Assembly: GCF_900167375.1 (NCBI RefSeq)
Contig: NZ_FUWY01000008.1
Coordinates: 1-64,000 of the forward strand
Length of the DNA stretch: 64,000 nucleotides
Reading direction: 5' to 3'
Source of the DNA: Anaerorhabdus furcosa
GTDB taxonomy: Bacteria; Bacillota_I; Bacilli_A; Erysipelotrichales; Erysipelotrichaceae
Made by a program: the position numbers and the translations under genes. A model generated the notes under the pieces. That model made no database searches, was not told the origin of the DNA, and worked only from the letters and a program-made list of their open reading frames with translations. Positions 3,116 to 63,903 of the stretch are shown piece by piece; position 1 is the stretch's first letter; every line of letters starts with the position of its first letter.

Positions 3116-4744
3116 TTAATCTTCATCGTAGTATTCTTCAAATTCATCGTAATCAATTTCGTTATTGTAAGCTTCAAGTGCTTCTTTTTCCTCACGCATA
3201 CGAATTTCTTCCAATTCCTCTTCTGAATATACTGGTTTAATATCATAATCTTTATCTTTCTTAATATCAATTGAACGTAATTTACGTTCTTCTTCATCTT
3301 TTTTCTTACGTTTCTTAAAGTCAGGTTTTTCAACTTTAGGTTTTGAAGTATCAGCAAGTTTTTCAAATACGCTGACATAATCTGTTCTAACCTTAGGTTC
3401 TTTCTTAACTTTTTTCACTACTTTTTCAACTGGTGCTTCTGGTTTTGGTTCAACCTTCTTCACTTCTTGTACAGGCTCAACGGTTTCTGTAACAACTACT
3501 GTTTCCACAACTGCCTCTTCAATTTCTTCAGTTGTTTCAACAATAACTTCAGTTTCTTCTTCATGTAATTCTTCTTTTTCTTCAATTGCTTCAATTTCGA
3601 ATTCTTCTTCCATTTCAGCAATCGCTTTAGAAGCTAGTTCACGTTTAATCTTTTCTTGTTCAACTTCATAATCAAACATTAACTTATCAAAATCAACACC
3701 TTGTTCAATTAATTCTTCTTTTGTCTTGATATCAATTTTCATATTTGTCAGTTTAACAGCAAGTCTTGCATTCTTACCTTTTTTACCAATAGCCAATGAT
3801 AATTGACTATTATCTACGATTACCATTAATGAACGTTTTTCATCAGTAGGTACCACTGCAATAACTTCTGCTGGAGCAAGTGCATTCTTTACAAGTTCCG
3901 TTGTATTTTCACTCCATTCAAAGATATCAATTTTTTCTCCATTTAGTTCATCACTAATTTCTTGAACACGTTGTCCACGAGGTCCAATACATGCTCCACG
4001 AGGATCAACATCTGGATTCTTAGAATAAACAGCCATCTTCGTTCTTTCACCAGCTTCTCTGGCAATACCACGAATTTCAACAATTCCTTGATAAATTTCA
4101 GGTACTTCTTTCTCAAACAAACGTTTTACAAGTTTTGCATCAGCACGTGATACTAAGACTTGTGAACCTTTTGTATCTTTATTGCATTCTGTAATAACTA
4201 CACGAATCTTTTGTCCCTCTTGGTAACGTTCACCAGGGATTTGAGCACCTTTAGGCATTAACGCAATTGTTTTACCTAAATTTACAAGAATAAACTTTTC
4301 TTCAACTGATTCAATGATACCCAATACCATTTCATCTAATAGATCAATATATTCATCATACACTGCTTGTTTTTCAGCTTCTCTAATTTTTTGTTTCATT
4401 ACGTTCTTTGCAAGTAATGCAGCAGCACGTCCTAACTCATTAATTGATACTTCTTTTTCAATAAACCCACCTAATTCAATTTCAGGATTAAGTTCTTTTG
4501 CATCAACTAATGAAATTTCTAATTCTTCATCTTCTACATCTGTTACAACTAGGTATTGTTGATAAACTGTGATTTTTCCTGTTGCATCACTAATATCAAC
4601 ACGTACTAAGATATCTGGGATATCCACATGTTTACGATACGCTTTAGCTAAAGCTTCTTTTAAAGCATCTTTAACTACTTCTTTTGAGATTTTACGATCA
4701 TCTTCAATTAATTGCATCGCTTTTAATAAATCCTTAAAATTCAT
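3116..4744 (-). CDS. nusA: Transcription termination/antitermination factor NusA with long acidic C-terminal extension
   Basis: NusA binds RNA polymerase and nascent RNA and tunes pausing and termination. The core is complete: N-terminal polymerase-binding domain (1-130), S1 domain (about 137-200), KH1 with GACIGPRGQRV near 250-260 and KH2 with LAIGKKGKNARLA near 318-329. After about residue 345 there is a tail of nearly 200 residues that is very rich in Glu, Lys and Val and probably disordered; the Bacillus protein stops soon after KH2. It follows rimP by 24 bases and leads the rest of the operon. The start ATG has a good AAGGAG site. Confidence 0.97.
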   Translation of the reverse strand: MNFKDLLKAMQLIEDDRKISKEVVKDALKEALAKAYRKHVDIPDILVRVDISDATGKITVYQQYLVVTDVEDEELEISLVDAKELNPEIELGGFIEKEVSINELGRAAALLAKNVMKQKIREAEKQAVYDEYIDLLDEMVLGIIESVEEKFILVNLGKTIALMPKGAQIPGERYQEGQKIRVVITECNKDTKGSQVLVSRADAKLVKRLFEKEVPEIYQGIVEIRGIAREAGERTKMAVYSKNPDVDPRGACIGPRGQRVQEISDELNGEKIDIFEWSENTTELVKNALAPAEVIAVVPTDEKRSLMVIVDNSQLSLAIGKKGKNARLAVKLTNMKIDIKTKEELIEQGVDFDKLMFDYEVEQEKIKRELASKAIAEMEEEFEIEAIEEKEELHEEETEVIVETTEEIEEAVVETVVVTETVEPVQEVKKVEPKPEAPVEKVVKKVKKEPKVRTDYVSVFEKLADTSKPKVEKPDFKKRKKKDEEERKLRSIDIKKDKDYDIKPVYSEEELEEIRMREEKEALEAYNNEIDYDEFEEYYDED

Positions 4745-4768
4745 TTTTTCTTTCTCCTTACTTGAATT

Positions 4769-5236
4769 TTATAATTTAACCGCTAAGCGGCAGAATTCTA
4801 TTTCATCTTGTTCAAAAGTTACTTCGCGAGTTAGTGCTTTATCACGATAATTCATCGTAATAATGCCCTCATCGACCTTCAATAAATCACCTGTAATTTC
4901 CAACATTTTCTTTACTGGATGTTTTACACGCACATAAATGTGCTGTCCAATTAAGCTACTTAATTCACTTAAATCTTTAACTTCTCTTTCTGCTCCTGGT
5001 GAGCATACTTCCAAGAAGTATTCATCCATGTTAGGAAATGCTTCATCCATCACGCTTGATAGTTTTTCAGAAACATTGGCACAAGTATCAATGTCCATTG
5101 TTCCATCACTCTTCATAATCGCAATTTGTAAAATACGCATTTTCTTTTCATTAAGCCATTTCACATCATACAATTTGACATCAAATAAACTTAATTCTGG
5201 TAAAATTAGTTCTTTAATTTTGTCGATTTGATCCAT
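4769..5236 (-). CDS. rimP: Ribosome maturation factor RimP
   Basis: RimP acts early in 30S assembly. The 155-residue product shows the N-terminal alpha/beta domain (ending with MDIDTCANVSEKLS) and the family signature YFLEVCSPGAEREVKDL, then a C-terminal SH3-like barrel. I chose the ATG at 5236 because AAAGGAG stands seven bases before it; an upstream in-frame TTG at 5257 would place that site inside the coding region. First gene of the nusA operon, just downstream of the terminator-like hairpin that ends polC. Confidence 0.95.
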   Translation of the reverse strand: MDQIDKIKELILPELSLFDVKLYDVKWLNEKKMRILQIAIMKSDGTMDIDTCANVSEKLSSVMDEAFPNMDEYFLEVCSPGAEREVKDLSELSSLIGQHIYVRVKHPVKKMLEITGDLLKVDEGIITMNYRDKALTREVTFEQDEIEFCRLAVKL

Positions 5237-9819: not shown

Positions 9820-11178
9820 TTATAAATCTCTTCCAAACAAGTAACTTCCACCACCTGCTTTTTTTACTTTATACATTGCTTGATCTGCTTTTAATAATAA
9901 TTCTTCTGCCGTTTTTCCATCAGTAGGATAGCAAGCAATTCCTACACTTACATTGCATTTTGCTTCAACAGTTTTTAGTTTCCACGGTTTATCAAATTTC
10001 TCATGAATTTTACCAATCATTACGCATAACTCATCTTCAGAGATATTTCCATCAATAATTGCAACAAACTCATCACCGCCATTACGATAGATTGCATTTT
10101 TAAGTACGTCTATACTTTTGAAAAAATCCCCTAAGCTGATTAAGAATTCATCTCCAATATCATGACCATAGGTATCATTAATCATTTTGAACCCATCAAT
10201 ATCAAAGAAAAGTAGATAGCCTGTTATAGCAGTATTTACTTGATTAATTCTTCGGTCACACTCGGTAACAAGCATCCTACGGTTAGGAAGTCCTGTAAGA
10301 GAGTCATAGTTTGCAAGATATTCAATGAGTGCTTCATTTTTCTTATTATCCGTAATATCTGCACTACTTACAACATGGGCAAGTCGTCCATCAATCCAAC
10401 GAAACGCTGCACTAAAGACTCTAAACCATGATCCATCTAATTCTCTTTGATAATCCCAAGTATATACTTTTGTCGGATCACCATTTTCATCAATTAGATT
10501 CTTTTGTGGGCAAAATTCACATTGGCCACTTTTACTTGGAAATAGTACTTCCCAACATTTTCTATTCTCAAATTTATCTTGACCACCATAAGGTTTAGCC
10601 ATTGATTGATTCACGTACAAAATTTCATGTGTATAGAAATCATTCACATAGATATCAATACCTGTGTTATCAATTATACTTTCCAGTGCTTTTCTAGAAT
10701 TTATTAATTGATTGTCATACATTCTTGGCATGATATATTTTAATAACATCGATCCACAAAGACCAAGAATTTGTCTATCCTCTACAGGTTCATCCCCTTC
10801 AACAAATAGCACTAGTTCTCCAATTCGTTTATCGATGATATGAGGCACAAAAAACAATTTTGATGTTTTAAATATTCCAAGTAATTCATCTTGATTTTCA
10901 TCATCTAATTTACTAACGGTATAGATTATTGATGATTCATGATGAATTTTTTCTTCAAACAAGTGAAGTGATAGTTTCTTTTCTACATTATCCCATGGCG
11001 AAATAAATTCTTTTAATTCCAAGAACCCATACCGGTTTGTTTCATAGACATACGCTTGCTTAAACGCAAAGGTTTTAGCAATTAAATCCAAAGCATTCTG
11101 GACTGTTGTTGTCGCTGCGTTAGTATCAACTAATAAGTTTGATAATAACATGACTAAATTATAGTTATCAACATTCAT
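9820..11178 (-). CDS. GGDEF diguanylate cyclase with GAF- and PAS-like sensor domains
   Basis: Predicted to make cyclic di-GMP from two GTP. The C-terminal domain carries the intact active-site motif in RNGGDEFVAI, LLFFDIDGFKMINDTYGHDIGD and a C-terminal SVGIACYPTDG. The inhibitory I-site RxxD expected just before GGDEF is absent. The N-terminal about 165 residues look like a GAF domain; the middle holds a PAS-like module with three or four Cys (CWEVLF, GQCEFCPQKNL), which could bind a metal or respond to redox. No transmembrane segment is seen, so it should be cytosolic. I chose the ATG at 11178, preceded by GGGGAG; an upstream ATG at 11223 lacks a site. No EAL domain protein is in the window. 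Confidence 0.93.
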   Translation of the reverse strand: MNVDNYNLVMLLSNLLVDTNAATTTVQNALDLIAKTFAFKQAYVYETNRYGFLELKEFISPWDNVEKKLSLHLFEEKIHHESSIIYTVSKLDDENQDELLGIFKTSKLFFVPHIIDKRIGELVLFVEGDEPVEDRQILGLCGSMLLKYIMPRMYDNQLINSRKALESIIDNTGIDIYVNDFYTHEILYVNQSMAKPYGGQDKFENRKCWEVLFPSKSGQCEFCPQKNLIDENGDPTKVYTWDYQRELDGSWFRVFSAAFRWIDGRLAHVVSSADITDNKKNEALIEYLANYDSLTGLPNRRMLVTECDRRINQVNTAITGYLLFFDIDGFKMINDTYGHDIGDEFLISLGDFFKSIDVLKNAIYRNGGDEFVAIIDGNISEDELCVMIGKIHEKFDKPWKLKTVEAKCNVSVGIACYPTDGKTAEELLLKADQAMYKVKKAGGGSYLFGRDL

Positions 11179-11235
11179 CACAATCTTCTCCCCAACAATT
11201 AAATTTAATGAATTTAAAATCAAAGCTCAATTCTA

Positions 11236-12819
11236 TTATTTAACAAAGTTACCAAATATTCCTCTTACAAATGTTCTAACCACTTCTCCACCTACAACAT
11301 TTATTGTAGTATCTTTTACACGATCTGCAGTACTTTTCTTTCTTGAATAAGATGATCGAGGTAATGCTGCTTTCGCTATTCGAACCAATCCACTTTCTAG
11401 TTCGCGTTCAAGTTTTGTATTCGTTTTCTTTGACGATTTACTTTCTTTTGTTGATTCTTTTGATTCCAACTGTTTTTTCAATTTCTCATTTTCTTCTTTT
11501 AAAGCTTCTGCTTCATTTTCTTTTGCTAACGCCTCTGCTTTACCAACAAGAACTTCATATGCTGACTCACGATCTATCATCGTTTCATACTTTGCATTCA
11601 TTTCACACTTTGCAAGTACAGCTTGCCACTCCTCATCACTTGCAGCTCCCATAAAACTTTGAGGAGGTAAGATAAATGTTCTCTCTACAGGTGTTGGTCT
11701 ACCTGCCTCATCCAAGAATGAGACAAGTGCTTCTCCTGTTCCAAGTTCAAGTAGTGCACTTTTTGTATCCACCTCTGGATTAGCACAAAAACTATCTGCA
11801 ACAGCTTTAATAGCTTTTTGTTCTTTCGGTGTATACGCATGCAAGCCATGTTGAATTCGATTTCCCAATTGTGCTAATACATCTTCACTAATGTCTGTTG
11901 GTTTTTGTGTAACAAAAAATACACCAACACCCTTAGATCGAATCAAGCGCACAATTTGCTCTACTTTTTGTAATAATTCTTTTGAGGCATTATCAAACAA
12001 AAGATGTGCTTCATCAAAATAGAAAATCATCTTTGGCTTATCAACATCTCCAATTTCCGGCAATATTTCATATAATTCAGACAATAGCCAAAGTAAAAAT
12101 GTTGTATATAAAGCAGGGTTTTGAAATAGTTTAACACTATTTAAGATATTAATATACCCTTTTCCTGTTTTATCTATTCGCATCCAGTCTTTTAAATCAA
12201 GGGCAGGTTCTCCAAAAAATAAATCTCCTCCTTGTTGTTCAAGTTGGATAACACCACGAGTAATAGCCCCAACAGTCGATGATGCAATATTACCATATTC
12301 AGTTCTTAATTCAGATGCATGTTCAGCCACATAATTAAGTATTGCTTTTAAGTCTTTCAAATCAAGTAATAATAACTTTTCATCATCTGCTACTTTAAAG
12401 ATGACTTCCAATACTCCAGTTTGCGTATCATTCAAATTCATGGCATGTGCCAACAAAAGAGGTCCCATCTCTGAAACCGTAGTACGTACAGGTGTGCCTT
12501 TTTCTCCATAGATATCCCAAAAAGTTGTTGGATAACCAGCATAAGAATAATTCGTATTATTTAACCCAAATTTTTTGATTCTCTTTTGCATTGATTCGCT
12601 ATCAACACCTGGAATACACATTCCCGTCAAATCACCTTTTACATCAGCCATGAAGACAGGAACACCCATATCACTAAATGATTCCGCCATAACTTTTAAA
12701 GTAATTGTTTTTCCTGTACCTGTTGCTCCCGCAATCAGACCATGACGATTTGCCATTATAGGTAGCAAATACTGTCTATTCTGATTCATCGACATCCAAA
12801 TTTTTTCCTCAAAATACAT
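11236..12819 (-). CDS. HerA-like ATPase (DUF853 family)
   Basis: A 527-residue cytosolic ATPase of the HerA/FtsK superfamily, related to E. coli YjgR. Walker A is GATGTGKT near residue 32, Walker B appears as KMIFYFDEAHLLF, and the VFFVTQKPTDI segment is typical of the family. The function of DUF853 proteins is unresolved; a DNA-translocating role is inferred from the fold. After about residue 430 there is a charged coiled-coil-like segment (EALAKENEAEALKEENEKLK) and a basic tail. The ATG follows AGGGAG at a good distance. It is separated from the diguanylate cyclase by 57 bases (12 from an upstream unlikely start). Confidence 0.88.
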   Translation of the reverse strand: MYFEEKIWMSMNQNRQYLLPIMANRHGLIAGATGTGKTITLKVMAESFSDMGVPVFMADVKGDLTGMCIPGVDSESMQKRIKKFGLNNTNYSYAGYPTTFWDIYGEKGTPVRTTVSEMGPLLLAHAMNLNDTQTGVLEVIFKVADDEKLLLLDLKDLKAILNYVAEHASELRTEYGNIASSTVGAITRGVIQLEQQGGDLFFGEPALDLKDWMRIDKTGKGYINILNSVKLFQNPALYTTFLLWLLSELYEILPEIGDVDKPKMIFYFDEAHLLFDNASKELLQKVEQIVRLIRSKGVGVFFVTQKPTDISEDVLAQLGNRIQHGLHAYTPKEQKAIKAVADSFCANPEVDTKSALLELGTGEALVSFLDEAGRPTPVERTFILPPQSFMGAASDEEWQAVLAKCEMNAKYETMIDRESAYEVLVGKAEALAKENEAEALKEENEKLKKQLESKESTKESKSSKKTNTKLERELESGLVRIAKAALPRSSYSRKKSTADRVKDTTINVVGGEVVRTFVRGIFGNFVK

Positions 12820-12877
12820 ATTATCTCTCCCTTTATGCTACTAATTACCCCTATTATACCCTCAAAACAAGATAAAA

Positions 12878-12899
12878 AGAACATGATTTCTCATGTTCT
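12878..12899 (-). terminator. Intrinsic terminator of nfnAB
   Basis: Nine-base perfect stem (AGAACATGA with TCATGTTCT, loop tttc) whose base overlaps the nfnB stop codon, followed on the minus strand by TTTTTATC. Good intrinsic terminator. Confidence 0.8.
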
Positions 12900-14265
12900 A
12901 GCCTAATAATTCTTTACAAATGCTCTCTGCCGCTTTTTTACCTGCACCCATAGCTAAAATAACGGTTGCTGCACCACTTACAGCATCTCCACCTGCATAA
13001 ACCGATTGTACGGATGTCATTTGATCTTCATTAACAACAAAGCAACCTCTACGATTTACTTCTAACGACTTCTCAGCGTCCTTTAAAAGTGGATTACTTG
13101 ATGTTCCTATTGCCATAATCACATAATCACAATCAAGATTAAATTCACTTCCCTCAATTACACTGACTCCACGTCTTCCCTTATCATCAGGTTCACCCAG
13201 TTCCATCTGAACACATGTCATTCCACTAACTTGACCTAAGTCATCCTTTATCATAGCGATTGGATTTGTTAAGAGTTTAAATTCAATTCCCTCTTCCATG
13301 GCATGTTCAATTTCTTCATGTCTTGCTGGCATTTCTTCTAAACTACGACGATAAACAAGTGTTACTCGATCACCCAAGCGACGTGCACAGCGTGCAGCGT
13401 CCATTGCTACATTTCCACCACCAACAACAACTGTATGTTTTGGTTTTGCAATTGGTGTATCATATTTTTCATCATACGCTTTCATTAAGTTACAACGAGT
13501 TAAATATTCATTAGCACTTACTACACCTACTGCATTTTCATTTGGAATATTCATAAAATTCGGCAAACCTGCACCAGTTCCAATAAACAGTGCTTTGAAG
13601 CCTTCATTCCACAAATCATCAAATGTAATCGTTCTACCCACTATCATATTTGTTTCAATTTTCACACGATAATCTTTGAGAGATTCAATTTCTTTTTGAA
13701 CTATTGACTTAGGTAATCTAAATTCTGGAATACCATATGACAACACACCACCTGTTTGATGAAGTGCTTCAAATATTGTGACATCAAATCCAGCTTTAGC
13801 ACAATCATTAGCACAAGATAATCCAGCTGGACCACTTCCAATAACGCCTACTTTGATTCCATTGGACTTAACCTCTTCTTTTGCTACTTTACCTTGTTCT
13901 GCAACATAGCGTTCTAGACGACCAATCGCAACTGCTTCTCCTTTTATACCACGTACACATTTTGCTTCACATTGACTCTCTTGTGGGCAAACACGTCCGC
14001 AAATACTTGGAAAATTATTTGTAATTTTAATTTCTCTTAATGCTTCATCTACTTGATCATTAACTAAGTATTGAATAAACTCTGGAATATGTACTCCCAC
14101 AGGGCAACCTTCCATACATGGTTTATGTTTACAATTCAAACATCTTTGTGCTTCGTTAATTGCCATTTCATGGGTATAACCTAAAGCTACTTCTTCAAAG
14201 TTTTTGCTACGAAGGGTTGGATCTTGAAAAGGCATAGGTGTCTTTTCATTTTGCATATTTGCCAT
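12898..14265 (-). CDS. nfnB: NADPH-dependent ferredoxin:NAD+ oxidoreductase large subunit (NfnB/GltD-like flavoprotein)
   Basis: A 455-residue flavoprotein with an N-terminal iron-sulfur region (RCLNCKHKPCMEGCPVGVHIPEF and CGRVCPQESQCEAKCVRG) and two Rossmann folds: FAD site VGVIGSGPAGLSCANDCA, and NADPH site VVVGGGNVAMDAARCARRLGD. This pattern is shared by glutamate synthase small subunit, sulfide dehydrogenase alpha and NfnB. The neighbour at 14267 is the matching NfnA subunit, which makes the electron-bifurcating transhydrogenase (NADPH linked to NADH and ferredoxin) the best call; no glutamate synthase large subunit is present. The genes abut, so they are co-translated. Cytosolic. Confidence 0.88.
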   Translation of the reverse strand: MANMQNEKTPMPFQDPTLRSKNFEEVALGYTHEMAINEAQRCLNCKHKPCMEGCPVGVHIPEFIQYLVNDQVDEALREIKITNNFPSICGRVCPQESQCEAKCVRGIKGEAVAIGRLERYVAEQGKVAKEEVKSNGIKVGVIGSGPAGLSCANDCAKAGFDVTIFEALHQTGGVLSYGIPEFRLPKSIVQKEIESLKDYRVKIETNMIVGRTITFDDLWNEGFKALFIGTGAGLPNFMNIPNENAVGVVSANEYLTRCNLMKAYDEKYDTPIAKPKHTVVVGGGNVAMDAARCARRLGDRVTLVYRRSLEEMPARHEEIEHAMEEGIEFKLLTNPIAMIKDDLGQVSGMTCVQMELGEPDDKGRRGVSVIEGSEFNLDCDYVIMAIGTSSNPLLKDAEKSLEVNRRGCFVVNEDQMTSVQSVYAGGDAVSGAATVILAMGAGKKAAESICKELLG

Positions 14266-55579: not shown

Positions 55580-56158
55580 TTATTTAATTAATTTCAAACT
55601 ATTATTTTGATAATATGAATTACTAATAAAGCCATAGAAATTTATATCAGAAATTCGATATTTAAAATATATTTCATCTTTATTTTGTTTATAATTTATT
55701 TTCAATTTTTCATCTTCCATTAAATCCACTAAACTATTAAAATCATATTCTAAGAAAATTGCTTCTTTCTTAGATATTTCTATCGCATACATAAGACTTC
55801 CATCAAAAATTGGAAATAATGCACTTTTATTCATTTCCATCATAGATGTATACATCCACGCATTTTCTATACTATCAATTTCTTCAAAATCTTCGAATCT
55901 TTGATTAAACAAATCGATTGTTTGCTGTTTTGGATTATCTAGTAAAAACACAGCGACACCACATAGGATTAACTTAAAAACTAAATACTTATCATTTTTT
56001 ATAGATAGTAAATAATTCGCGAAAACAATACACATCATGAACATCATAAACCAAAACAAGAAATTCAGAGTGAAATTATAAAACTTAATTTGCATCATAA
56101 TGTTAGTTGTATAGATAAATAGGAACCCTAATAATAAAGAATAAATGTTTTTTTTCAT
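55580..56158 (-). CDS. Predicted membrane protein, unrecognised
   Basis: A 192-residue protein with three hydrophobic segments in the first 75 residues (about 5-24, 28-50, 58-75) and a soluble acidic C-terminal part of about 110 residues. No family recognised. It starts six bases after the stop of the secreted 241-residue protein and should be co-transcribed with it; a partner or immunity-like role is possible but unsupported. Confidence 0.68.
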   Translation of the reverse strand: MKKNIYSLLLGFLFIYTTNIMMQIKFYNFTLNFLFWFMMFMMCIVFANYLLSIKNDKYLVFKLILCGVAVFLLDNPKQQTIDLFNQRFEDFEEIDSIENAWMYTSMMEMNKSALFPIFDGSLMYAIEISKKEAIFLEYDFNSLVDLMEDEKLKINYKQNKDEIYFKYRISDINFYGFISNSYYQNNSLKLIK

Positions 56159-56164
56159 TTTTGA

Positions 56165-56890
56165 TTACATTGCTCCTGATTGGTACGGATAACTAGTAGT
56201 TAATGCTCTACAAGCTGCAGGATAACCATAATTACTTGGATCGCCTACCCAAAAATATGATTTTTTTGTAATTGTGGAACCAGTTTGTGTTCCTTTGCTC
56301 CAAGAACTTCCATCATATATGGCTTTAAATAATTTAATATCAGTTTTACTTGTCAAAATTGAACATTGGGAGTACGTAGCCATGCTATAGGATATATATA
56401 CATATTGCGGCGAGTTAAGTGAATCAACTATCAACGATCCCCAAGAAGTTATTAATCCTGGCCACACCCCTATTGCAGAAGCAGCTAGTGCTACTGCTGT
56501 CGCAGGGCTATTGGTATAGTTCAAATTAACTAAAACCGGTAACAGTTGTGTATAGGAACTCCATGTAGATCTAGGTTGAATAAGTTCTCTTTCTATTTCT
56601 CGAGTATCAATTTTATTAATTATAATTAAGTCCCCATTAACTTTTTCATAAATATAGTCATTATATTTATAGAATTCATTAATCCCCTCTTTTCCTTCCA
56701 CCGTAAATAACAACCCCTCTTCAACATTAAGATAATATATAAGTATCTCTTCTCCAATTTGAATTACTTCTTTGGTTTTTTTCTCTTTTCCCACTATTTT
56801 TTCTTGTCCTTGTTCTGCAAGTAAATTTAATGGCATAATAAAACTAGCAATAAGCATTGATGATAAAACTAAGCAGATAATTTTTTTCAT
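56165..56890 (-). CDS. Predicted secreted protein, unrecognised
   Basis: A 241-residue protein with a clear Sec signal peptide (KKIICLVLSSMLIASFIMP; likely cut after LLA). The mature part has an acidic first region (to about 110) and a second region rich in Ser, Thr, Tyr and Trp with a hydrophobic helix (NSPATAVALAASAIGVWPG) and a few Cys. No enzyme motif. GAGGAGGA precedes the ATG. The first gene of a two-gene unit with the membrane protein at 55580. Confidence 0.72.
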   Translation of the reverse strand: MKKIICLVLSSMLIASFIMPLNLLAEQGQEKIVGKEKKTKEVIQIGEEILIYYLNVEEGLLFTVEGKEGINEFYKYNDYIYEKVNGDLIIINKIDTREIERELIQPRSTWSSYTQLLPVLVNLNYTNSPATAVALAASAIGVWPGLITSWGSLIVDSLNSPQYVYISYSMATYSQCSILTSKTDIKLFKAIYDGSSWSKGTQTGSTITKKSYFWVGDPSNYGYPAACRALTTSYPYQSGAM

Positions 56891-57009
56891 ATTAGCTTCC
56901 TCCTCATTTTTATTAAATTTAATCGCTAAATCTTTCTATTGATTAAATACATAAAGAATTTTTTACTTTCGAATCAAGTGGCTCTTGCAGTATTAGATTT
57001 TGTGTAACT

Positions 57010-57177
57010 TCAATCAATCATAAACCATACTTTATTGTCTCTCATATAATCAAAAACTTCTGTATAATTATTATTTAAATATTCATCTTTTGTATTTAAA
57101 CAAAATTGTTCTGTAATGATATTATTGTCACCATCATAAATTATATAGTTTTCATAATTATCGCCATAAAACTCTGA
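57010..57177 (-). pseudogene. Orphan C-terminal coding fragment
   Basis: About 55 codons open on the minus strand with no start: SEFYGDNYENYIIYDGDNN, ITEQFCLNTKDEYLNNN and so on to a TGA at 57010. A stop lies directly in front (57178-57180). It looks like the 3' end of a lost gene. Not similar to the fragment at 57236 or to any neighbour. Confidence 0.5.
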
Positions 57178-57235
57178 TCATTTACAATCGTATTATTATC
57201 TAATATTAAAATTAGTTTTTTCCTTTGCAAACGTT

Positions 57236-57385
57236 TTAAATACAGACAGTAGCCCAAAATAGAATTCTAAAATACTCACTATTGATATTTACCAATGATA
57301 ATACAAGTACTAATATTCCAACAATTGCATTAAAATTATACTCTATCGATGTCTTCTTCACAAAGAAATTTTTTGTGTTTTTCAC
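57236..57385 (-). pseudogene. Decayed 5' copy of the membrane-protein gene at 58692
   Basis: The 171 bases 57248-57418 closely match 59127-59298, which cover the 5' end of the intact gene at 58692-59264. In this copy the start is GTG instead of ATG, the GGAGGATAGT ribosome site has become a poor GAAAGATAGT, and the frame stops after about 49 codons (VGILVLVLSLVNINSEYFR, then WATVCI and TAA). It is a truncated duplicate. Confidence 0.8.
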
Positions 57386-57531
57386 ACTATCTTTCAGAGC
57401 TAGTTTAAAATATTAAAATCATATACTTTGCGAATTCTAGTTAAAAATTTTCTATTGTTACACAATTCTACTAGGTAAGGTTCTCTTTTTTTATAACTGA
57501 ATTCCTAACTGCTTGTGTTTACACATAATAT
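57386..57531. other. Non-coding remainder of the 56891-57531 gap
   Basis: The gap 56891-57531 holds the promoter side of the secreted-protein gene, the two gene fragments above and, from 57386 to 57531, AT-rich sequence in which no further gene, RNA or hairpin was seen. Confidence 0.6.
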
Positions 57532-57804
57532 TCATACTATATCTTTCTTCTCAATAAATTTAATAGAAGTCAATATAGTAATAATTCCTAAAACAATGAG
57601 AAATACCAATAATATATCATAAATGAAAAGTGATGTTTCCTTAAAAAATAAATCGAATTCACTTTTGAATGTAATTGAATTTACAGATATACCAGAAACA
57701 TAAATCGCTACACCGATTAGTGTTCTCATTGATACTTGGATTAAAATGGCGATTGTTGATATACATATTCCCATTTTAAATAATTCTATATTTTTTATTT
57801 TCAT
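57532..57804 (-). CDS. Small predicted membrane protein, unrecognised
   Basis: A 90-residue protein with two hydrophobic segments (about 10-37 and 58-80) separated by an acidic loop. No family recognised. It starts 25 bases after the stop of the secreted 147-residue protein, so the pair may form one unit. The ribosome site is weak. Confidence 0.6.
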   Translation of the reverse strand: MKIKNIELFKMGICISTIAILIQVSMRTLIGVAIYVSGISVNSITFKSEFDLFFKETSLFIYDILLVFLIVLGIITILTSIKFIEKKDIV

Positions 57805-57828
57805 TTATTAACTAAAATCTAATTACCA

Positions 57829-58272
57829 TTAGTAATTGTATTTAACATCCTGCGTAAGACCGACAAGAACCTTTGCCGTTCCGGAATCTTCATATGTTCC
57901 AAAAAGATGTCTATCATACGAATAATTTTGATATTTAGAGAAATATGTAATTGTACATGATCTAACTGTTTTATTTGCGTAAGTTTTTGAATAAGTTATA
58001 GATGAACTAGTAGATAGACCAATTGTAGTGTTAATGTTTTTCGCTACTTCATAAGACCAACCTACGGTCATTGTACTCTCATCTGTTCTACTTACATAAA
58101 ATCGCTTGGATCCACCTGCTGCAACATCATCGCTCGATACAACAATATTATAGTCCGTAAATTGTGAAGTAGCTTTTATGTTTTTATTAGAATCTTCCGC
58201 ATATGTAACTGTTGGAGTTAGAATTCTAGTAAATAAAAGTGTAGATAGTATAATTCTTGTAATCTTTTTCAT
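57829..58272 (-). CDS. Small predicted secreted protein, unrecognised
   Basis: A 147-residue protein with a Sec signal peptide (KKITRIILSTLLFTRILTP, likely cut after TYA). The mature part, about 122 residues, is rich in Ser, Thr and Tyr with alternating pattern typical of beta sheet (YNIVVSSDDVAAGGSKRFYV, STMTVGWSYEVAKN). One Cys only. No known bacteriocin or toxin motif. GGAGG before the ATG. It is accompanied downstream by a two-span membrane protein. Confidence 0.7.
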   Translation of the reverse strand: MKKITRIILSTLLFTRILTPTVTYAEDSNKNIKATSQFTDYNIVVSSDDVAAGGSKRFYVSRTDESTMTVGWSYEVAKNINTTIGLSTSSSITYSKTYANKTVRSCTITYFSKYQNYSYDRHLFGTYEDSGTAKVLVGLTQDVKYNY

Positions 58273-58691
58273 TAAAATTTCCTCCTTTTAATGAAAATTT
58301 TTTTTGATTCTATTAGAATATTATAATGGCTAAGATTAATTTTTATAATCTGAATGTTTTACATATATGTTAATAAAACTGGGTTACCAATGAAATAAAA
58401 TTACAATAGGCTATGCTCTTTTTTATTTTCATTCTTTTAAGAATTAATTGGATACTGTAAATAACTATTTAAATCAACATTTTATTCATATAACAACAAA
58501 GCATGATTCGCAATAATATAAGAAATCTATACGCTATTGAACTATTAGCTTGTAAACATCGTATTGCTAAATACATCCAAAATGCATTGCATAGTGCAAA
58601 TAACCAAGTCATCTATAGTTCCTCATCAATCAAAGTTAATTGTAAATAACTTACATACAACAAATTCAAAGTTCTACGATTATCGATAATC
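58273..58691. other. Gene-poor AT-rich gap
   Basis: About 420 bases without a convincing gene. It must hold the promoter for the 58272 gene (minus strand). A stem-like AGATTA...TAATCT occurs near 58335-58352. The only open frame is the weak plus-strand one at 58503. Confidence 0.5.
58503..58649 (+). CDS. Weak 48-codon open frame, perhaps a gene fragment
   Basis: Reads MIRNNIRNLYAIELLACKH, then IAKYIQNALHSANNQ. It has no ribosome site and a stop codon lies four codons before the ATG. The amphipathic helical look is of a real protein fragment, perhaps a transposase remnant, but I cannot identify it. Confidence 0.2.
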   Translation: MIRNNIRNLYAIELLACKHRIAKYIQNALHSANNQVIYSSSSIKVNCK

Positions 58692-59264
58692 TCAAAATCT
58701 ACTTTTTACAGAACTGCTCATAAGATCAGCTAGGTTTGTGGGAACATATTCAGAGTTCTTATCTTGGAAGACAATAGAATTATTTTTTGTCTGCAAGAAA
58801 TTCAATATTTTTTGTGCTACATCATTATCTAGTACAGGAATCAAGATTTCTTGGAGATTTGATTTAATATAAATCTTGTGGTTTCCCTTATATCCTGGAC
58901 GTGTAATTTCAAACACATTTGAGTCATGTCTTGCAATTACAATATCTTTGTATTCAATAGCAACATACTTCTTAAAGCTATATGCTAAAACTACATTTTC
59001 AAAGAACAATGCATTCTCAAATGTTTTGTAACTATCATCGACTAAATTACTTACACTCATCATAAATTTATTTAATCTATTCAATTTAATAAGGAATAAT
59101 ATAACAATAATAAGTTCAAAACAAATAGTAGCCCAAAATAGAATTTTGAAATACTCACTATTGATATTTGCCAATGATAATACAAGTACTAATATTCCAA
59201 CAATTGCACTAAAACTATATTCTATTGCTGACTTTTTTACAAAGAAATTTTTTATGTTTTTCAT
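58692..59264 (-). CDS. Membrane-anchored PH-like (YcxB-type) protein
   Basis: A 190-residue protein: short basic N-terminus, two hydrophobic segments (about 15-34 and 38-58), then a soluble beta-rich domain (FENVVLAYSFKKYVAIEYKDI, VFEITRPGYKGNHKIYIKS) that resembles the bacterial PH-like domain of YcxB proteins. That assignment is by pattern only. It lies 27 bases after the secreted 247-residue protein and has a GGAGGATAGT site before the ATG. It belongs to the operon led by the AgrD-like peptide. A broken copy lies at 57236. Confidence 0.7.
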   Translation of the reverse strand: MKNIKNFFVKKSAIEYSFSAIVGILVLVLSLANINSEYFKILFWATICFELIIVILFLIKLNRLNKFMMSVSNLVDDSYKTFENALFFENVVLAYSFKKYVAIEYKDIVIARHDSNVFEITRPGYKGNHKIYIKSNLQEILIPVLDNDVAQKILNFLQTKNNSIVFQDKNSEYVPTNLADLMSSSVKSRF

Positions 59265-59291
59265 ACTATCCTCCGCAGTTAGTTTAAAATA

Positions 59292-60035
59292 TTAAAAACC
59301 TATACCTATTGCATTAACACCACTAGATAATACAGATAGAGTGGCATTCCCACTACTTGATGGAGTAACCTTTAATTGAAGATATGCTGAATAACTATAC
59401 GCATCTTTATTAGCTGTATAACTATAAAATCCATAAGCACTAGAAGTTTTATTATTTCTAATACTAGAGGTTTTATCAATTCCTCCCCAACCTCCAGTAA
59501 ATTCTGCTTTTACAGAAGATATTACAAATTTAGAATCATCCATACTCCAAGAAATTGTATTATCACAAGTTATCACGGTTCCGTGTCCTGTTGCAGAATA
59601 TGAATATGATAACCTCTTTGTATAAGTTGTTGCTCTAGTCATACTTGAATTTTCAATTTCAATTGTACCAACTATATTTGCTTTTGGGTCATACCCTTGT
59701 GCATATAATTGAGTACGCAATTCACCTGCAAATTCTGGAAATTCATTAGGAACAAGTTCGAGAACAAATGCTGGATCCCATAATAAGTTTCCCTTTTCAA
59801 ATTCATTCATTTTTTCAACTATTTGATTTCTTACTATCGCTTTTATCTCTTTATAAGTTAAGTTTGAAATATCCGATTGAGTTTTTATATTTGTTTCATT
59901 ATCATTCAATTCAGAATACATACCATATGACAGTAATTTTTGTTTCAATACATCTTCATTATCTTCAGCAAAAACATTAGGTGTGATAAAAGTAAAAATT
60001 AACAATATGCTTAGTAACAACTTTATTTTTTTCAT
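59292..60035 (-). CDS. Predicted secreted protein, unrecognised
   Basis: A 247-residue protein with a Sec signal peptide (KKIKLLLSILLIFTFITP, likely cut after VFA). The mature part has a helical, acidic first half (NLTYKEIKAIVRNQIVEKMN) and a Ser/Thr/Tyr-rich second half from about 140 with beta pattern (YTKRLSYSYSATGHGTVITC, KVTPSSSGNATLSVLSSG). Gly-rich C-terminus (VNAIGIGF). No catalytic motif. It follows the AgrD-like peptide gene by 58 bases on the same strand with GGAGAAGA before the ATG, so both should come from one transcript. Confidence 0.75.
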   Translation of the reverse strand: MKKIKLLLSILLIFTFITPNVFAEDNEDVLKQKLLSYGMYSELNDNETNIKTQSDISNLTYKEIKAIVRNQIVEKMNEFEKGNLLWDPAFVLELVPNEFPEFAGELRTQLYAQGYDPKANIVGTIEIENSSMTRATTYTKRLSYSYSATGHGTVITCDNTISWSMDDSKFVISSVKAEFTGGWGGIDKTSSIRNNKTSSAYGFYSYTANKDAYSYSAYLQLKVTPSSSGNATLSVLSSGVNAIGIGF

Positions 60036-60093: not shown

Positions 60094-60201
60094 TTAATAT
60101 TTTTCTGGTTGATACCAACCAAATGCTGACATAGTTCCATTTCCTACAACTGCAACAAACATCAACACAGTACCAAGAAAGTTTAAAATTTTCTTTTTCA
60201 T
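60094..60201 (-). CDS. AgrD-like cyclic lactone autoinducer precursor (Ser type), 35 residues
   Basis: Too short for routine gene finding but convincing. AAAGGAGG stands seven bases before the ATG. The peptide has a basic start (MKKKILNFLG), an amphipathic hydrophobic helix (TVLMFVAVVGNG), then TMSAFGW and the tail YQPEKY. Clostridial AgrD peptides share a hydrophobic leader, a Cys-started five-residue ring and a YQP(E/K) tail. Here the ring start would be Ser (SAFGW), giving a lactone instead of a thiolactone, as known for some staphylococcal signals. No agrB, agrC or agrA gene is in the window. Followed by a secreted protein. Confidence 0.72.
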   Translation of the reverse strand: MKKKILNFLGTVLMFVAVVGNGTMSAFGWYQPEKY

Positions 60202-60267: not shown

Positions 60268-60301
60268 TTGGTTCGAATAGGCAAATTCTTGGTTTGAATA
60301 G
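60268..60301. promoter_or_regulatory. Two 13-bp direct repeats 21 bp apart (LytTR/AgrA-like site)
   Basis: TTGGTTCGAATAG at 60268-60280 and TTGGTTTGAATAG at 60289-60301, 12 of 13 bases equal, start to start exactly 21 bp. LytTR regulators such as AgrA and VirR bind pairs of about 9-bp direct repeats spaced about two helical turns apart, containing a GTT core, as here. It lies 7 bases from the predicted -35 box of the AgrD-like gene. Confidence 0.55.
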
Positions 60302-60311
60302 ATATATATAA

Positions 60312-60350
60312 GTTTAGTTAATCAAAAAAAAAAAAAAAAAAAAACTAAAC
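60312..60350. repeat. A21 homopolymer flanked by inverted GTTTAGTT/AACTAAAC
   Basis: A run of 21 A at 60324-60344 between GTTTAGTT (60312-60319) and AACTAAAC (60343-60350). The run is the longest in the window and lies 11 bases beyond the direct repeats, upstream of the AgrD-like gene. It could bend DNA, act as an UP-like element or change length by slippage. Confidence 0.7.
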
Positions 60351-60630: not shown

Positions 60631-62286
60631 TTATAAAGTTTGGTTGAGAATGAGATTTTTGAATTGCTTGCATTCATTATAAAGTTTTTGATAATCTCCT
60701 TTCATAATGATTCTACCTTCTGAAAACAATATAATTTCATCAAATTGCATCATGACTTCCTTATCAATTCTATGAGTTACAATAACTATCGTTTTATCCA
60801 GTTTTAGAATACGTTGTTCTATCATACTAGATGAAATTCTATCTAACGCTGAAGTTGGTTCATCCATAATGATAACATTAGAATCTCTAAGTATAGCTCT
60901 CGCTAATAAAATACGTTGTTTTTCTCCACCAGACAACTTATTAGAATCAATGTGTGAAGTTAAAGACAATTTTCTTTTTTTCATAATATCAAGAAAACCC
61001 GTTATATCAAGGACTTTTTCAACATCAACCCAATTATATTCATCACTCAACAATGTAACATTATCAAAGATGCTTCCTTCAAATATAAAATCACTTTGAA
61101 GAACAAAACTTACTTGATTTCTAAATGAACTTAGATTAATATTTTTGGAATTAATCGTTGAAATAGTATAATCACCTTTGCAATCTTCACAAGGATTCAA
61201 AAGCAAATGCAAAGTTGTAGATTTTCCAGAACCACTTTCTCCAACAATGGCATATTTTTTATTTTTATATATTTCTAGATTTACATCCTTAATCGAGAAC
61301 TCAGAATTTTCTTTGTGAAATGATACATTTTTCAAACTAAATACTGATTCGTTAAGCGATGTAACTAAAACTTCATTATTTTTAAAATCTATGTTAATTA
61401 AGTAATTAAGTCTTTCTCTTATTTTCTTCGTTGATATAATTTTATTAATATCTTTAGCTATATTTGTAATAGGAAAAACAATATTATTAGACAATTGAAT
61501 TGATGCAATAAGGATTCCAATTGTCAAATATCCATTTAATGTCATATATGTACCAATGATAAATAGTGATATAAACACAGAGTTACTGAATAACGATGAT
61601 AACGCAGAATACTTGCTTAAAAAATTATTATAATCAATGTTTTGCTTTTCAGAATTATTGACTTTTTCCTCAGCTTTTTTATAAAACTGCTTATGAGCAT
61701 TATATCCTCTTATAGTAAGCAATCCAGAGATAACATTTTTTATAAAATTCAATTCATTGATTTTTGTATTTGAAACATCCATTTTCATTTTTGAATTTCT
61801 TGTAGATATTATCTTTGTTATAATCAAAGGCATACTCGAAAGTATTACTGTGATTAGGAAAATAATTATTGAATAATTCATTAAAATGACAATAGACGAT
61901 ATGCTCACAATTAATCCTCTAGCAATATTTATAATGCTTTTTAAGTAATCATTTTCATAACTGATCATGTCATTCGTTAATATTGATAAATAGCTATCAC
62001 TGCTATTATTATCTTCTCCATAAATTAAATTTTGAAGAATCTTACATTTCATGTCTTTAATACTTCTAAATATATATTCATTCTGGAGTAATTCAGCAAT
62101 GTACTGTGATATAGAAAACCATACCAATAATATTATCGAGATAATTACAATTGATTTATATAATTCTAAATTTTTATATACTACACTATCAATTATTTTT
62201 TGTTGAATCACAGCAAAAAGCACCATATTAAATGAATCAAACATTGCGAATATAATAGTAATCACAAATAGTATTTTATTTTTCAT
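60631..62286 (-). CDS. ABC exporter (fused membrane and ATPase domains) of the RiPP cluster
   Basis: A 551-residue half transporter. Six hydrophobic segments in residues 1-290, then an ATPase domain: Walker A VGESGSGKSTTLHLL, Q-loop VSFVLQSDFIFEG, signature KLSGGEKQRILLARA, Walker B VIIMDEPTSALD and H-loop IVTHR. There is no N-terminal C39 peptidase domain, so leader removal must be done elsewhere. It is 92 bases after the radical SAM gene on the same strand, and its ATG follows GGAGGT. Exporting the modified peptide, or self-protection, is inferred. Confidence 0.92.
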   Translation of the reverse strand: MKNKILFVITIIFAMFDSFNMVLFAVIQQKIIDSVVYKNLELYKSIVIISIILLVWFSISQYIAELLQNEYIFRSIKDMKCKILQNLIYGEDNNSSDSYLSILTNDMISYENDYLKSIINIARGLIVSISSIVILMNYSIIIFLITVILSSMPLIITKIISTRNSKMKMDVSNTKINELNFIKNVISGLLTIRGYNAHKQFYKKAEEKVNNSEKQNIDYNNFLSKYSALSSLFSNSVFISLFIIGTYMTLNGYLTIGILIASIQLSNNIVFPITNIAKDINKIISTKKIRERLNYLINIDFKNNEVLVTSLNESVFSLKNVSFHKENSEFSIKDVNLEIYKNKKYAIVGESGSGKSTTLHLLLNPCEDCKGDYTISTINSKNINLSSFRNQVSFVLQSDFIFEGSIFDNVTLLSDEYNWVDVEKVLDITGFLDIMKKRKLSLTSHIDSNKLSGGEKQRILLARAILRDSNVIIMDEPTSALDRISSSMIEQRILKLDKTIVIVTHRIDKEVMMQFDEIILFSEGRIIMKGDYQKLYNECKQFKNLILNQTL

Positions 62287-62378: not shown

Positions 62379-63710
62379 TTATTTATTTTGGACTGCTATT
62401 CTTATGTTTTTCTTGAAATCTTTCAAGTCTTCTCCTTTAATTAGGCACAATTTTTCGATAATTCTATTAAATAGTATTTTTTCAGTATAACATCTACTAT
62501 CGATTGGTATATTAATGGAATCATTATTAAGGAAATTTAATCCTTTGCACCAAACACCACAAAAATTCCTTACAGTGCACTCTTTACAGGTATCAACATT
62601 GGTACGATATGCATTAAAATCACTAAATAAAGACGATTCTCCACAATTCACTTTAAAACTATCTATATGCATTCTATAGTTTGTATCGTTAACAAACATT
62701 TGGCAAGGATAAATATATCCATCATTTGAAATAGTTATAGATCTACCTGACCCACAATCTTTTTGATATATTTTATTAATAATACCGTACACCATTTTTA
62801 ATATTTTAAGATTCAAATAACTTTTCCCATGAATGATGTCATCAAAAAATATATCAACAAACTCTTCAAATAAATTCTTAATTTTTTTTAATTCCTTAGA
62901 ATTATATTTTATTGATTTATCTACTACTAAAAATGTCGCATATCCATTGATTTCAAATCTTTCAAATATTTTCAACCATTTTTCAGCGCAACCTTTACTG
63001 TAATGTTTTATATGCTCATCTGTTATCGTCATCTCAATAGTCGGCTTAATTCCAATGAAATTGAGTTCATCAATAAAGTGACTAACAATATCAAAAGTCC
63101 CATGATTATTTGAATCTATACGATTTATATCATTAATATCCTTTGGACCATCTAAACTTACAGTAATTTTAAACTTTTGTTTTTTTAACATTTCAAATAT
63201 CTCTGGATTCGTTATTGTTCCATTTGTAACGATTGAATATTCATGATACTTTTGTTGTTCATATAGATTATCTATGAATTTTTTAATTTCTATAAAATTT
63301 AATAATGGTTCTCCTCCAAAAAAGGAAATAGTTTTTATTCCACCACTATATTTTCTTGAAATTTCATTATAATATTTTAAATATTTATTGTAGTCAAAAA
63401 ATTTATTTACTAATTGACTATTATATGTACCTTCATTAGCATAACAATATTTGCATTTCATATTACAACACTCTGATGACATAAACTGCAATGATGCTAA
63501 TGTATTAGTAACCTTTAATTGATTTTTACTTATGTCGCAAGATTTGTCTATATATTCATTAATCTCATCATTAATAATTTCAATAGAGTTTTTGGTAAGT
63601 TTAAAATCTTCTCTAGATAGGTTCATGAAAATTCCTGTAGATATGTGATATAGAAAATTTTCATCTTCACCAATCAACATATACTCATCATTTTTAAATT
63701 TTTTCGCCAT
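62379..63710 (-). CDS. Radical SAM/SPASM peptide maturase
   Basis: A 443-residue radical SAM enzyme. Residues 1-65 (DENFLYHISTGIFMNLSRED) look like a PqqD/RRE-type leader-binding region. The radical SAM cluster ligands are C82, C86 and C89 in SSECCNMKCKYCYAN (CX3CX2C), followed by FFGGEPLL and VTNGTI and VSLDGP. The C-terminal SPASM domain has CGSGRSITISNDGYIYPC and CKECTVRNFCGVWC (CX2CX5CX3C), binding auxiliary clusters. Enzymes of this type install thioether or carbon-carbon links in short peptides. The adjacent 29-residue Cys-rich precursor is the evident substrate. Not an anaerobic sulfatase maturase by context. Confidence 0.92.
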   Translation of the reverse strand: MAKKFKNDEYMLIGEDENFLYHISTGIFMNLSREDFKLTKNSIEIINDEINEYIDKSCDISKNQLKVTNTLASLQFMSSECCNMKCKYCYANEGTYNSQLVNKFFDYNKYLKYYNEISRKYSGGIKTISFFGGEPLLNFIEIKKFIDNLYEQQKYHEYSIVTNGTITNPEIFEMLKKQKFKITVSLDGPKDINDINRIDSNNHGTFDIVSHFIDELNFIGIKPTIEMTITDEHIKHYSKGCAEKWLKIFERFEINGYATFLVVDKSIKYNSKELKKIKNLFEEFVDIFFDDIIHGKSYLNLKILKMVYGIINKIYQKDCGSGRSITISNDGYIYPCQMFVNDTNYRMHIDSFKVNCGESSLFSDFNAYRTNVDTCKECTVRNFCGVWCKGLNFLNNDSINIPIDSRCYTEKILFNRIIEKLCLIKGEDLKDFKKNIRIAVQNK

Positions 63711-63746: not shown

Positions 63747-63769
63747 GGGAGAATTTATTAGATTCTCCC
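63747..63769 (-). terminator. Hairpin between precursor peptide and maturase genes
   Basis: Eight-base perfect stem (GGGAGAAT with ATTCTCCC, seven-base loop) 12 bases after the precursor stop, followed by ATTTTATG on the minus strand. A leaky terminator that keeps the precursor more abundant than its enzyme is common in RiPP operons. Confidence 0.7.
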
Positions 63770-63781
63770 TGTTTTTTAATT

Positions 63782-63871
63782 TTATCCACAGCAACAAACT
63801 GCAATTCCAGCTGCGAAATAATCATCAAGTTCTACATCTGCTTCTATACTAAAATCAACTATTTTTTCCAT
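63782..63871 (-). CDS. RiPP precursor peptide, 29 residues ending in CCCG
   Basis: A strong GAGGAGGT site precedes the ATG. The peptide starts MEKIVDFSIEADVELDDYF and ends AAGIAVCCCG. The first 19 residues are acidic like a leader, with ELDDYF as the possible recognition motif; the last ten hold all three Cys in a row before a terminal Gly. It is directly upstream of a radical SAM/SPASM maturase and an ABC exporter, which is the classic RiPP layout. The class cannot be assigned: it is unlike the subtilosin, SCIFF or thuricin cores that I recall. A cut after AAG would leave only seven residues. Confidence 0.8.
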   Translation of the reverse strand: MEKIVDFSIEADVELDDYFAAGIAVCCCG

Positions 63872-63903
63872 TATGTCACCTCCTCTCAAATTAAGTCATT
63901 CAT

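Follow-up and report, generated by a model that had tools for sequence, protein, structure and literature searches.

Does the short open reading frame that precedes a radical SAM gene near the end of a 64,000-nucleotide stretch of the Anaerorhabdus furcosa genome (hereafter, the window) encode the substrate of that enzyme, and what would be made, and when, from a peptide whose cysteines all lie at its C-terminal end?

Precursor gene and operon

The initial annotation took a 29-residue peptide with the C-terminal sequence CCCG, situated ahead of a radical SAM/SPASM maturase and an ABC exporter, to be a RiPP precursor. Inspection of the minus strand confirmed the reading frame, the CCCG end (Cys26-28 and the terminal Gly29 of MEKIVDFSIEADVELDDYFAAGIAVCCCG), and the order of the genes. 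The features of the operon are as follows:

63871..63782, minus strand: precursor peptide MEKIVDFSIEADVELDDYFAAGIAVCCCG, 29 aa, assigned from the ORF, its ribosome-binding site, its rarity, its place 5' of the maturase gene, and similar Cys-ended peptides in related clusters
63879..63884, minus strand: ribosome-binding site AGGAGG, from the sequence, ending 7 nt ahead of the precursor ATG
63747..63769, minus strand: hairpin GGGAGAAT...ATTCTCCC between precursor and maturase, terminator-like on both strands
62379..63710, minus strand: radical SAM/SPASM maturase, 443 aa, with a short N-terminal RRE-like stretch, assigned from profiles and the relatives' alignment, PapB-related but below the family cutoff
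60631..62286, minus strand: ABC exporter, 551 aa, with permease and ATPase fused and without a C39 peptidase domain, assigned from NCBIfam and Pfam profiles

The identification as a RiPP precursor is well supported by the ribosome-binding site, the position, the maturase, and the exporter, and by related clusters that share both the layout and short Cys-ended peptides. As in radical SAM RiPP systems, a small ORF with a leader and a core lies beside a peptide-modifying enzyme. Such short ORFs tend to escape gene callers. In 82 kb (the 64-kb window and 18 kb of downstream contig, L006), only four ATG ORFs of 20–60 aa are preceded by GGAGG, and the precursor and an AgrD-like peptide (see below) are two of the four. 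Simulated DNA with the same trinucleotide make-up contained 1.9 such ORFs per 82 kb, and three Cys within the last six residues were found in none of 60 simulations. The 87 large ORFs (24,754 aa) contain CC five times and CCC not once. The precursor peptide occurs as a single copy in its own genome.

The view that three adjacent Cys are unusual also held: MEKIVDFSIEADVELDDYFAAGIAVCCCG matched nothing in NCBIfam or Pfam, and CCC appears in no relative. A tblastn search against plasmids gave no match, and a pattern scan (ribosome-binding site, ATG, CCCG, and stop) of viral and genome collections yielded only unrelated peptides among the in-frame matches listed. Separately, a small MGCFDSFFGNNNCWIIILIAVIILCCCCG-like peptide with a CCCG or CCCCG end recurs in Clostridia MAGs (L070, L073, L088, L092, L099, L124, L157, and others); it has a strong ribosome-binding site ahead of it and mostly no radical SAM motif nearby.

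Terminator-like hairpins numbered two, compared with 0.1 in shuffles, and the one between precursor and maturase is a possible processing site or attenuating terminator. No leader protease was found within the operon. The best plasmid relative of the exporter has no maturase adjoining it.

The maturase and related clusters

The CxxxCxxC motif and the seven SPASM Cys of the maturase are invariant with its relatives, giving the full 7-Cys set. The best-scoring named family is that of PapB ranthipeptides (freyrasin; NF047865), with which the enzyme also shares the domain layout and a short precursor before the maturase. Membership was nevertheless rejected: the enzyme's 147 bits fall short of the cutoff (340), which a true member (L183) passes with 389, and it falls outside the PapB plus SCIFF clade. 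The next scores were 121 bits for nif11 and 97 bits for SCIFF (cutoff 425). The SCIFF system (CteA/CteB, TIGR03974) likewise has a SPASM thioether-forming enzyme, and the profile of the maturase group aligns with SCIFF maturases over the full length, including the N-terminal RRE stretch, which is short in this enzyme. SCIFF precursors have a conserved sequence with six Cys in about 45 residues, as against three Cys in MEKIVDFSIEADVELDDYFAAGIAVCCCG, and this assignment was rejected as well. The best solved-structure relative is 5wgg, which is the thioether-forming enzyme CteB (PMC8326336). One PapB-like example, on the Paraclostridium bifermentans plasmid CP124692 (L048 311-427, minus strand), has an unannotated 38-aa precursor, MLKLKNQINEKQAVRAKGCGGWDGNCIFCDGGKWDFNS, before an unannotated maturase that spans the start of the record, followed by an ABC gene, the exporter nearby being shared with the present operon, and a two-component system.

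The maturase is an orphan. At E 1e-30, searches of the family (196 genomes) and the class (395 genomes) returned the enzyme itself and no close homolog, and 392 genomes of the phylum gave only background at E 1e-22. Among 391 genomes from the class of G682 (a Mediterraneibacter MAG, Clostridia), the best matches were L173/L181 (E 1.8e-41) and L174/L182 (2e-33). Deeper searches added L207, L208, L212, and L210, and one further order gave a SCIFF enzyme only. No relative emerged when genome and viral contigs were scanned with short peptides of the maturase. If PapB and SCIFF maturases are set aside, the nearest relatives, 23–31% identical, are themselves uncatalogued, and no maturase above 40% identity turned up in the collections searched. 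In the tree, a PapB plus SCIFF clade (98/91) excludes the window's enzyme and these relatives, and the enzyme joins L208, L209, and L212 weakly (87/72) on long branches. The second maturase match in the same genome (L007 2167-5741, minus strand) is anaerobic sulfatase maturase-like and lies beside a sulfatase-like gene.

The initial annotation made its proposal depend on a conserved peptide in homologous clusters, and this was borne out in part. Short acidic peptides occur at the equivalent position in five of the six nearest-placed relatives, with CC, CCGCC, CGGGCGAGC, or CGC in the C-terminal region; the precursor of L209 was not read, as the contig ends there. The sequences are MMEELEKVTLEELEELEEIICPWNGTVCC in L181, MDNEKNKMEEAVSNNYDLINLDELEELEEIVCPSSNGCCGCC in L207, ...LRDLEEVICAGIGGTVCGCDEAAK in L208, ...FEDMEEIVTPGFFGVIICC in L212, and MTNFSFEEVKNPNFLIGSDVDSWGIFCGGVC in L210, and L182 carries five tandem copies ending in MDNKKIPVENLIEKVDVSEIDELESTVTPACGGGCGAGC or ...CGGGC. 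All six precursors are short and carry a net charge of -3 to -9 ahead of their first Cys. Their cores contain one to five Cys, mostly in the last 10 residues, although the first Cys of L208 lies 15 from the end.

The CCCG end, in contrast, is not conserved, and the profile of the relatives' precursors did not recognize MEKIVDFSIEADVELDDYFAAGIAVCCCG (-4.6 bits, worse than most shuffles). A shared leader that the alignment had suggested by eye was therefore dropped. What MEKIVDFSIEADVELDDYFAAGIAVCCCG has in common with the relatives' peptides is its position, its size, its acidity, and the C-terminal location of its Cys; the hallmark of the group is Cys near the C-terminus and not CCCG, which the relatives lack. 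The clostridial clusters L181, L182, L207, L208, and L212, which have the nearest maturases and resemble the present one in their acidic-leader short peptides, Cys near the C-terminus, and gene position, differ in having an ELEE-type leader, absent from MEKIVDFSIEADVELDDYFAAGIAVCCCG, and mostly FtsX-type ABC transporters. Several of them also carry an M50 protease, and the M50 proteases adjoining the maturase in several relatives are like those of daptide and epipeptide (YydH/LiaK) systems.

The surrounding agr system

The window ends 129 bases upstream of the precursor, and the next 18 kb of the contig contains three divergently oriented agr genes: a LytTR response regulator (64161-64895, PF04397), a GHKL histidine kinase (64895-66175, PF14501), and AgrB (66102-66743, PF04647, 80.8 bits). 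The initial annotation had included neither these genes, which lie beyond the window, nor the agrD-like gene (60201..60094) on the other side of the operon. The features within the window are:

60094..60201, minus strand: agrD-like autoinducer precursor MKKKILNFLGTVLMFVAVVGNGTMSAFGWYQPEKY (TIGR04223, 31.7 bits against a cutoff of 19), with a GGAGG site
60270..60301, minus strand: direct repeat CTATTCAAACC N10 CTATTCGAACC with a 21-bp period, upstream of agrD, from a pattern count in 82 kb

With agrB, agrD, the GHKL kinase, and the LytTR regulator together, the agr gene set is complete, and the RiPP genes are placed between agrD and the agrACB part of the system. In the AgrD core, TMSAFGW-YQPEKY, the residue expected to close the ring, ordinarily Cys, is Ser, so the signal is probably a serine lactone. 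A partner repeat close to CTATTCGAACC, also with a 21-bp period, lies upstream of agrA (64098-64129, beyond the window). Pairs with this period occur twice in 82 kb, at the agrA and agrD promoters only, and in none of 20 simulated sequences. The spacing suits a LytTR dimer, judging from AgrA sites, and the repeats are likely LytTR (AgrA) sites. The agrA-side repeat lies closer to agrA than to the precursor ATG, from which about 227 bp separate it; this weighs against agr control of the precursor promoter, which is a proposal.

The agr-linked RiPP locus is genuine; its maturase is an orphan, and no relative shares its core. With its full agr set, the locus would also bring a natural means of inducing a radical SAM RiPP cluster that is otherwise silent. 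In the limited open-licence literature consulted, we found no description of an agr-linked radical SAM RiPP. Streptosactin (GggA/B/C) is similar in that it is a radical SAM RiPP linked to quorum sensing and its ABC exporter is related. Membership was rejected by score, as both the exporter (182 of 750 bits, GggC) and the maturase (63 of 650, GggB) stay below the cutoffs. Some streptococcal radical SAM RiPPs, such as streptosactin, are under quorum sensing via Rgg/SHP, not agr, and the donor Cys of streptosactin precede their acceptors (PMC8172795).

Genes of the agr type are also found beside the relatives L182 and L211. In L211 (1295-7903), a related maturase is apparently divided between frames (3533-4213 and around 4215-4815) next to agrB and a split kinase, and this cluster is apparently a decayed agr-linked one. 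Behind agrD, at 55580-60035 on the minus strand, are several genes whose products (247, 147, 241, 190, and 192 aa) match no family and carry a signal peptide or membrane helices; these genes may be further agr targets. The predicted structure of one secreted neighbor (59292-60035) is of low confidence, and the 190-aa protein (58692-59264) has a partial copy (57141-57385) that looks broken. A run of about 22 A lies on the plus strand at 60324-60346, between the exporter gene and agrD.

Proposed product and alternatives

With Cys at positions 26-28 of a 29-residue peptide, a thioether could form only with an acceptor on their N-terminal side or with Gly29. A hairpin-type sactipeptide, with its donor-N-terminal polarity, was rejected on this ground, and the CX3D/E motif of PapB is impossible in the core of MEKIVDFSIEADVELDDYFAAGIAVCCCG, in which the Cys are followed only by Gly29 and by neither Asp nor Glu. 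NxxcA comes from another host, has an NxxC motif that is absent from MEKIVDFSIEADVELDDYFAAGIAVCCCG, and is regulated by an Rgg-type system in place of agr. It provides a precedent for the reverse polarity, as its Cys23 is joined to Asn20 by a beta-thioether, with the acceptor N-terminal to the donor as the CCCG placement would require (PMC8326336). In most characterized sactipeptides and PapB-type ranthipeptides, the donor Cys lies ahead of the acceptor; sactipeptides have N-terminal donors and C-terminal acceptors with few exceptions (PMC8326336), and PapB joins Cys to the Asp three residues later, CX3D (PMC9413430). A substrate whose only Cys are C-terminal requires reverse polarity, as in NxxcA, or a different chemistry. 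Given the usual polarity and the NxxcA precedent, we expect one or more reverse-polarity thioethers here.

We consider it probable that the operon encodes an agr-controlled RiPP in which one or more thioethers connect the C-terminal Cys to N-terminal residues. The product would most likely be a small secreted peptide with chemical cross-links, formed when cell density is high, and in structure most likely a thioether macrocycle. We infer that MEKIVDFSIEADVELDDYFAAGIAVCCCG is the substrate of the maturase, and propose on the same footing the type of bond, the export of the product, the removal of its leader, and agr control of the precursor promoter. The maturase would bind the acidic leader (about residues 1-18) and, with its radical SAM cluster and two SPASM clusters, would oxidatively link at least one of Cys26-28 to carbons of more N-terminal residues at a cost of 2 Da per link. 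The acceptors may lie within FAAGIAV or be Asp16/17 or Tyr18; Gly29 would be the alternative. The adjacent ABC protein would export the peptide, and a protease from outside the operon would cut off the leader. AgrB would turn AgrD into the signal sensed by AgrC, and AgrA would bind the 21-bp-period repeats, so that the surrounding agr system sets expression. An antimicrobial or signaling role is a guess. We put forward only tentatively the further-reaching idea that the adjacent C-terminal Cys are linked backwards into fused or lariat-like polythioethers, and that a broader uncatalogued maturase group acts on C-terminal-Cys substrates.

Among the alternatives, the main one is that the enzyme performs another radical chemistry (epimerization as in epipeptides, or a C-C or ether link) and leaves the three Cys free or in disulfides. 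Epimerization stands foremost because the relatives carry the epipeptide- and daptide-like M50 proteases next to the maturase; the Cys placement, which leaves Gly29 as the sole C-terminal acceptor, points the same way. We regard this alternative as unlikely, since PapB, nif11, and SCIFF maturases are the best-scoring families for the enzyme and its group, which also have the full SPASM set, no epimerase model is among the best profile matches, and Cys is the feature common to the relatives' cores. A metal- or iron-sulfur-cluster-binding CCCG, modified or not, in a metallophore or metal carrier would be in keeping with three adjacent Cys as a plausible soft-metal ligand. Thiol ligation, however, needs no radical SAM maturase, no metal-handling gene was seen in the neighborhood, and the relatives' cores vary from a single Cys to five, which makes such a role very improbable.

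The ORF could be a decayed or non-functional remnant, with the true substrate elsewhere in the genome, as the lack of conservation of MEKIVDFSIEADVELDDYFAAGIAVCCCG in relatives might suggest; we think this improbable, because the ribosome-binding site is perfect, the enzyme and exporter are intact, and agrD is the only other GGAGG-preceded candidate near the maturase. Least probable of all is a regulatory leader peptide, whose three Cys codons, about 20 bases ahead of the terminator-like hairpin, would attenuate transcription of the maturase genes according to cysteine supply. The downstream genes are not those of cysteine metabolism, no competing stable structure was detected (z -0.74), and related maturases are preceded by longer, often tandem peptides that are precursor-like; moreover, the maturase would have no nearby substrate without the MEKIVDFSIEADVELDDYFAAGIAVCCCG ORF.

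In the L207 cluster (10677-13889), the CCGCC-ended precursor and the maturase adjoin carrier-protein-like and nonribosomal-peptide-synthetase-like genes.
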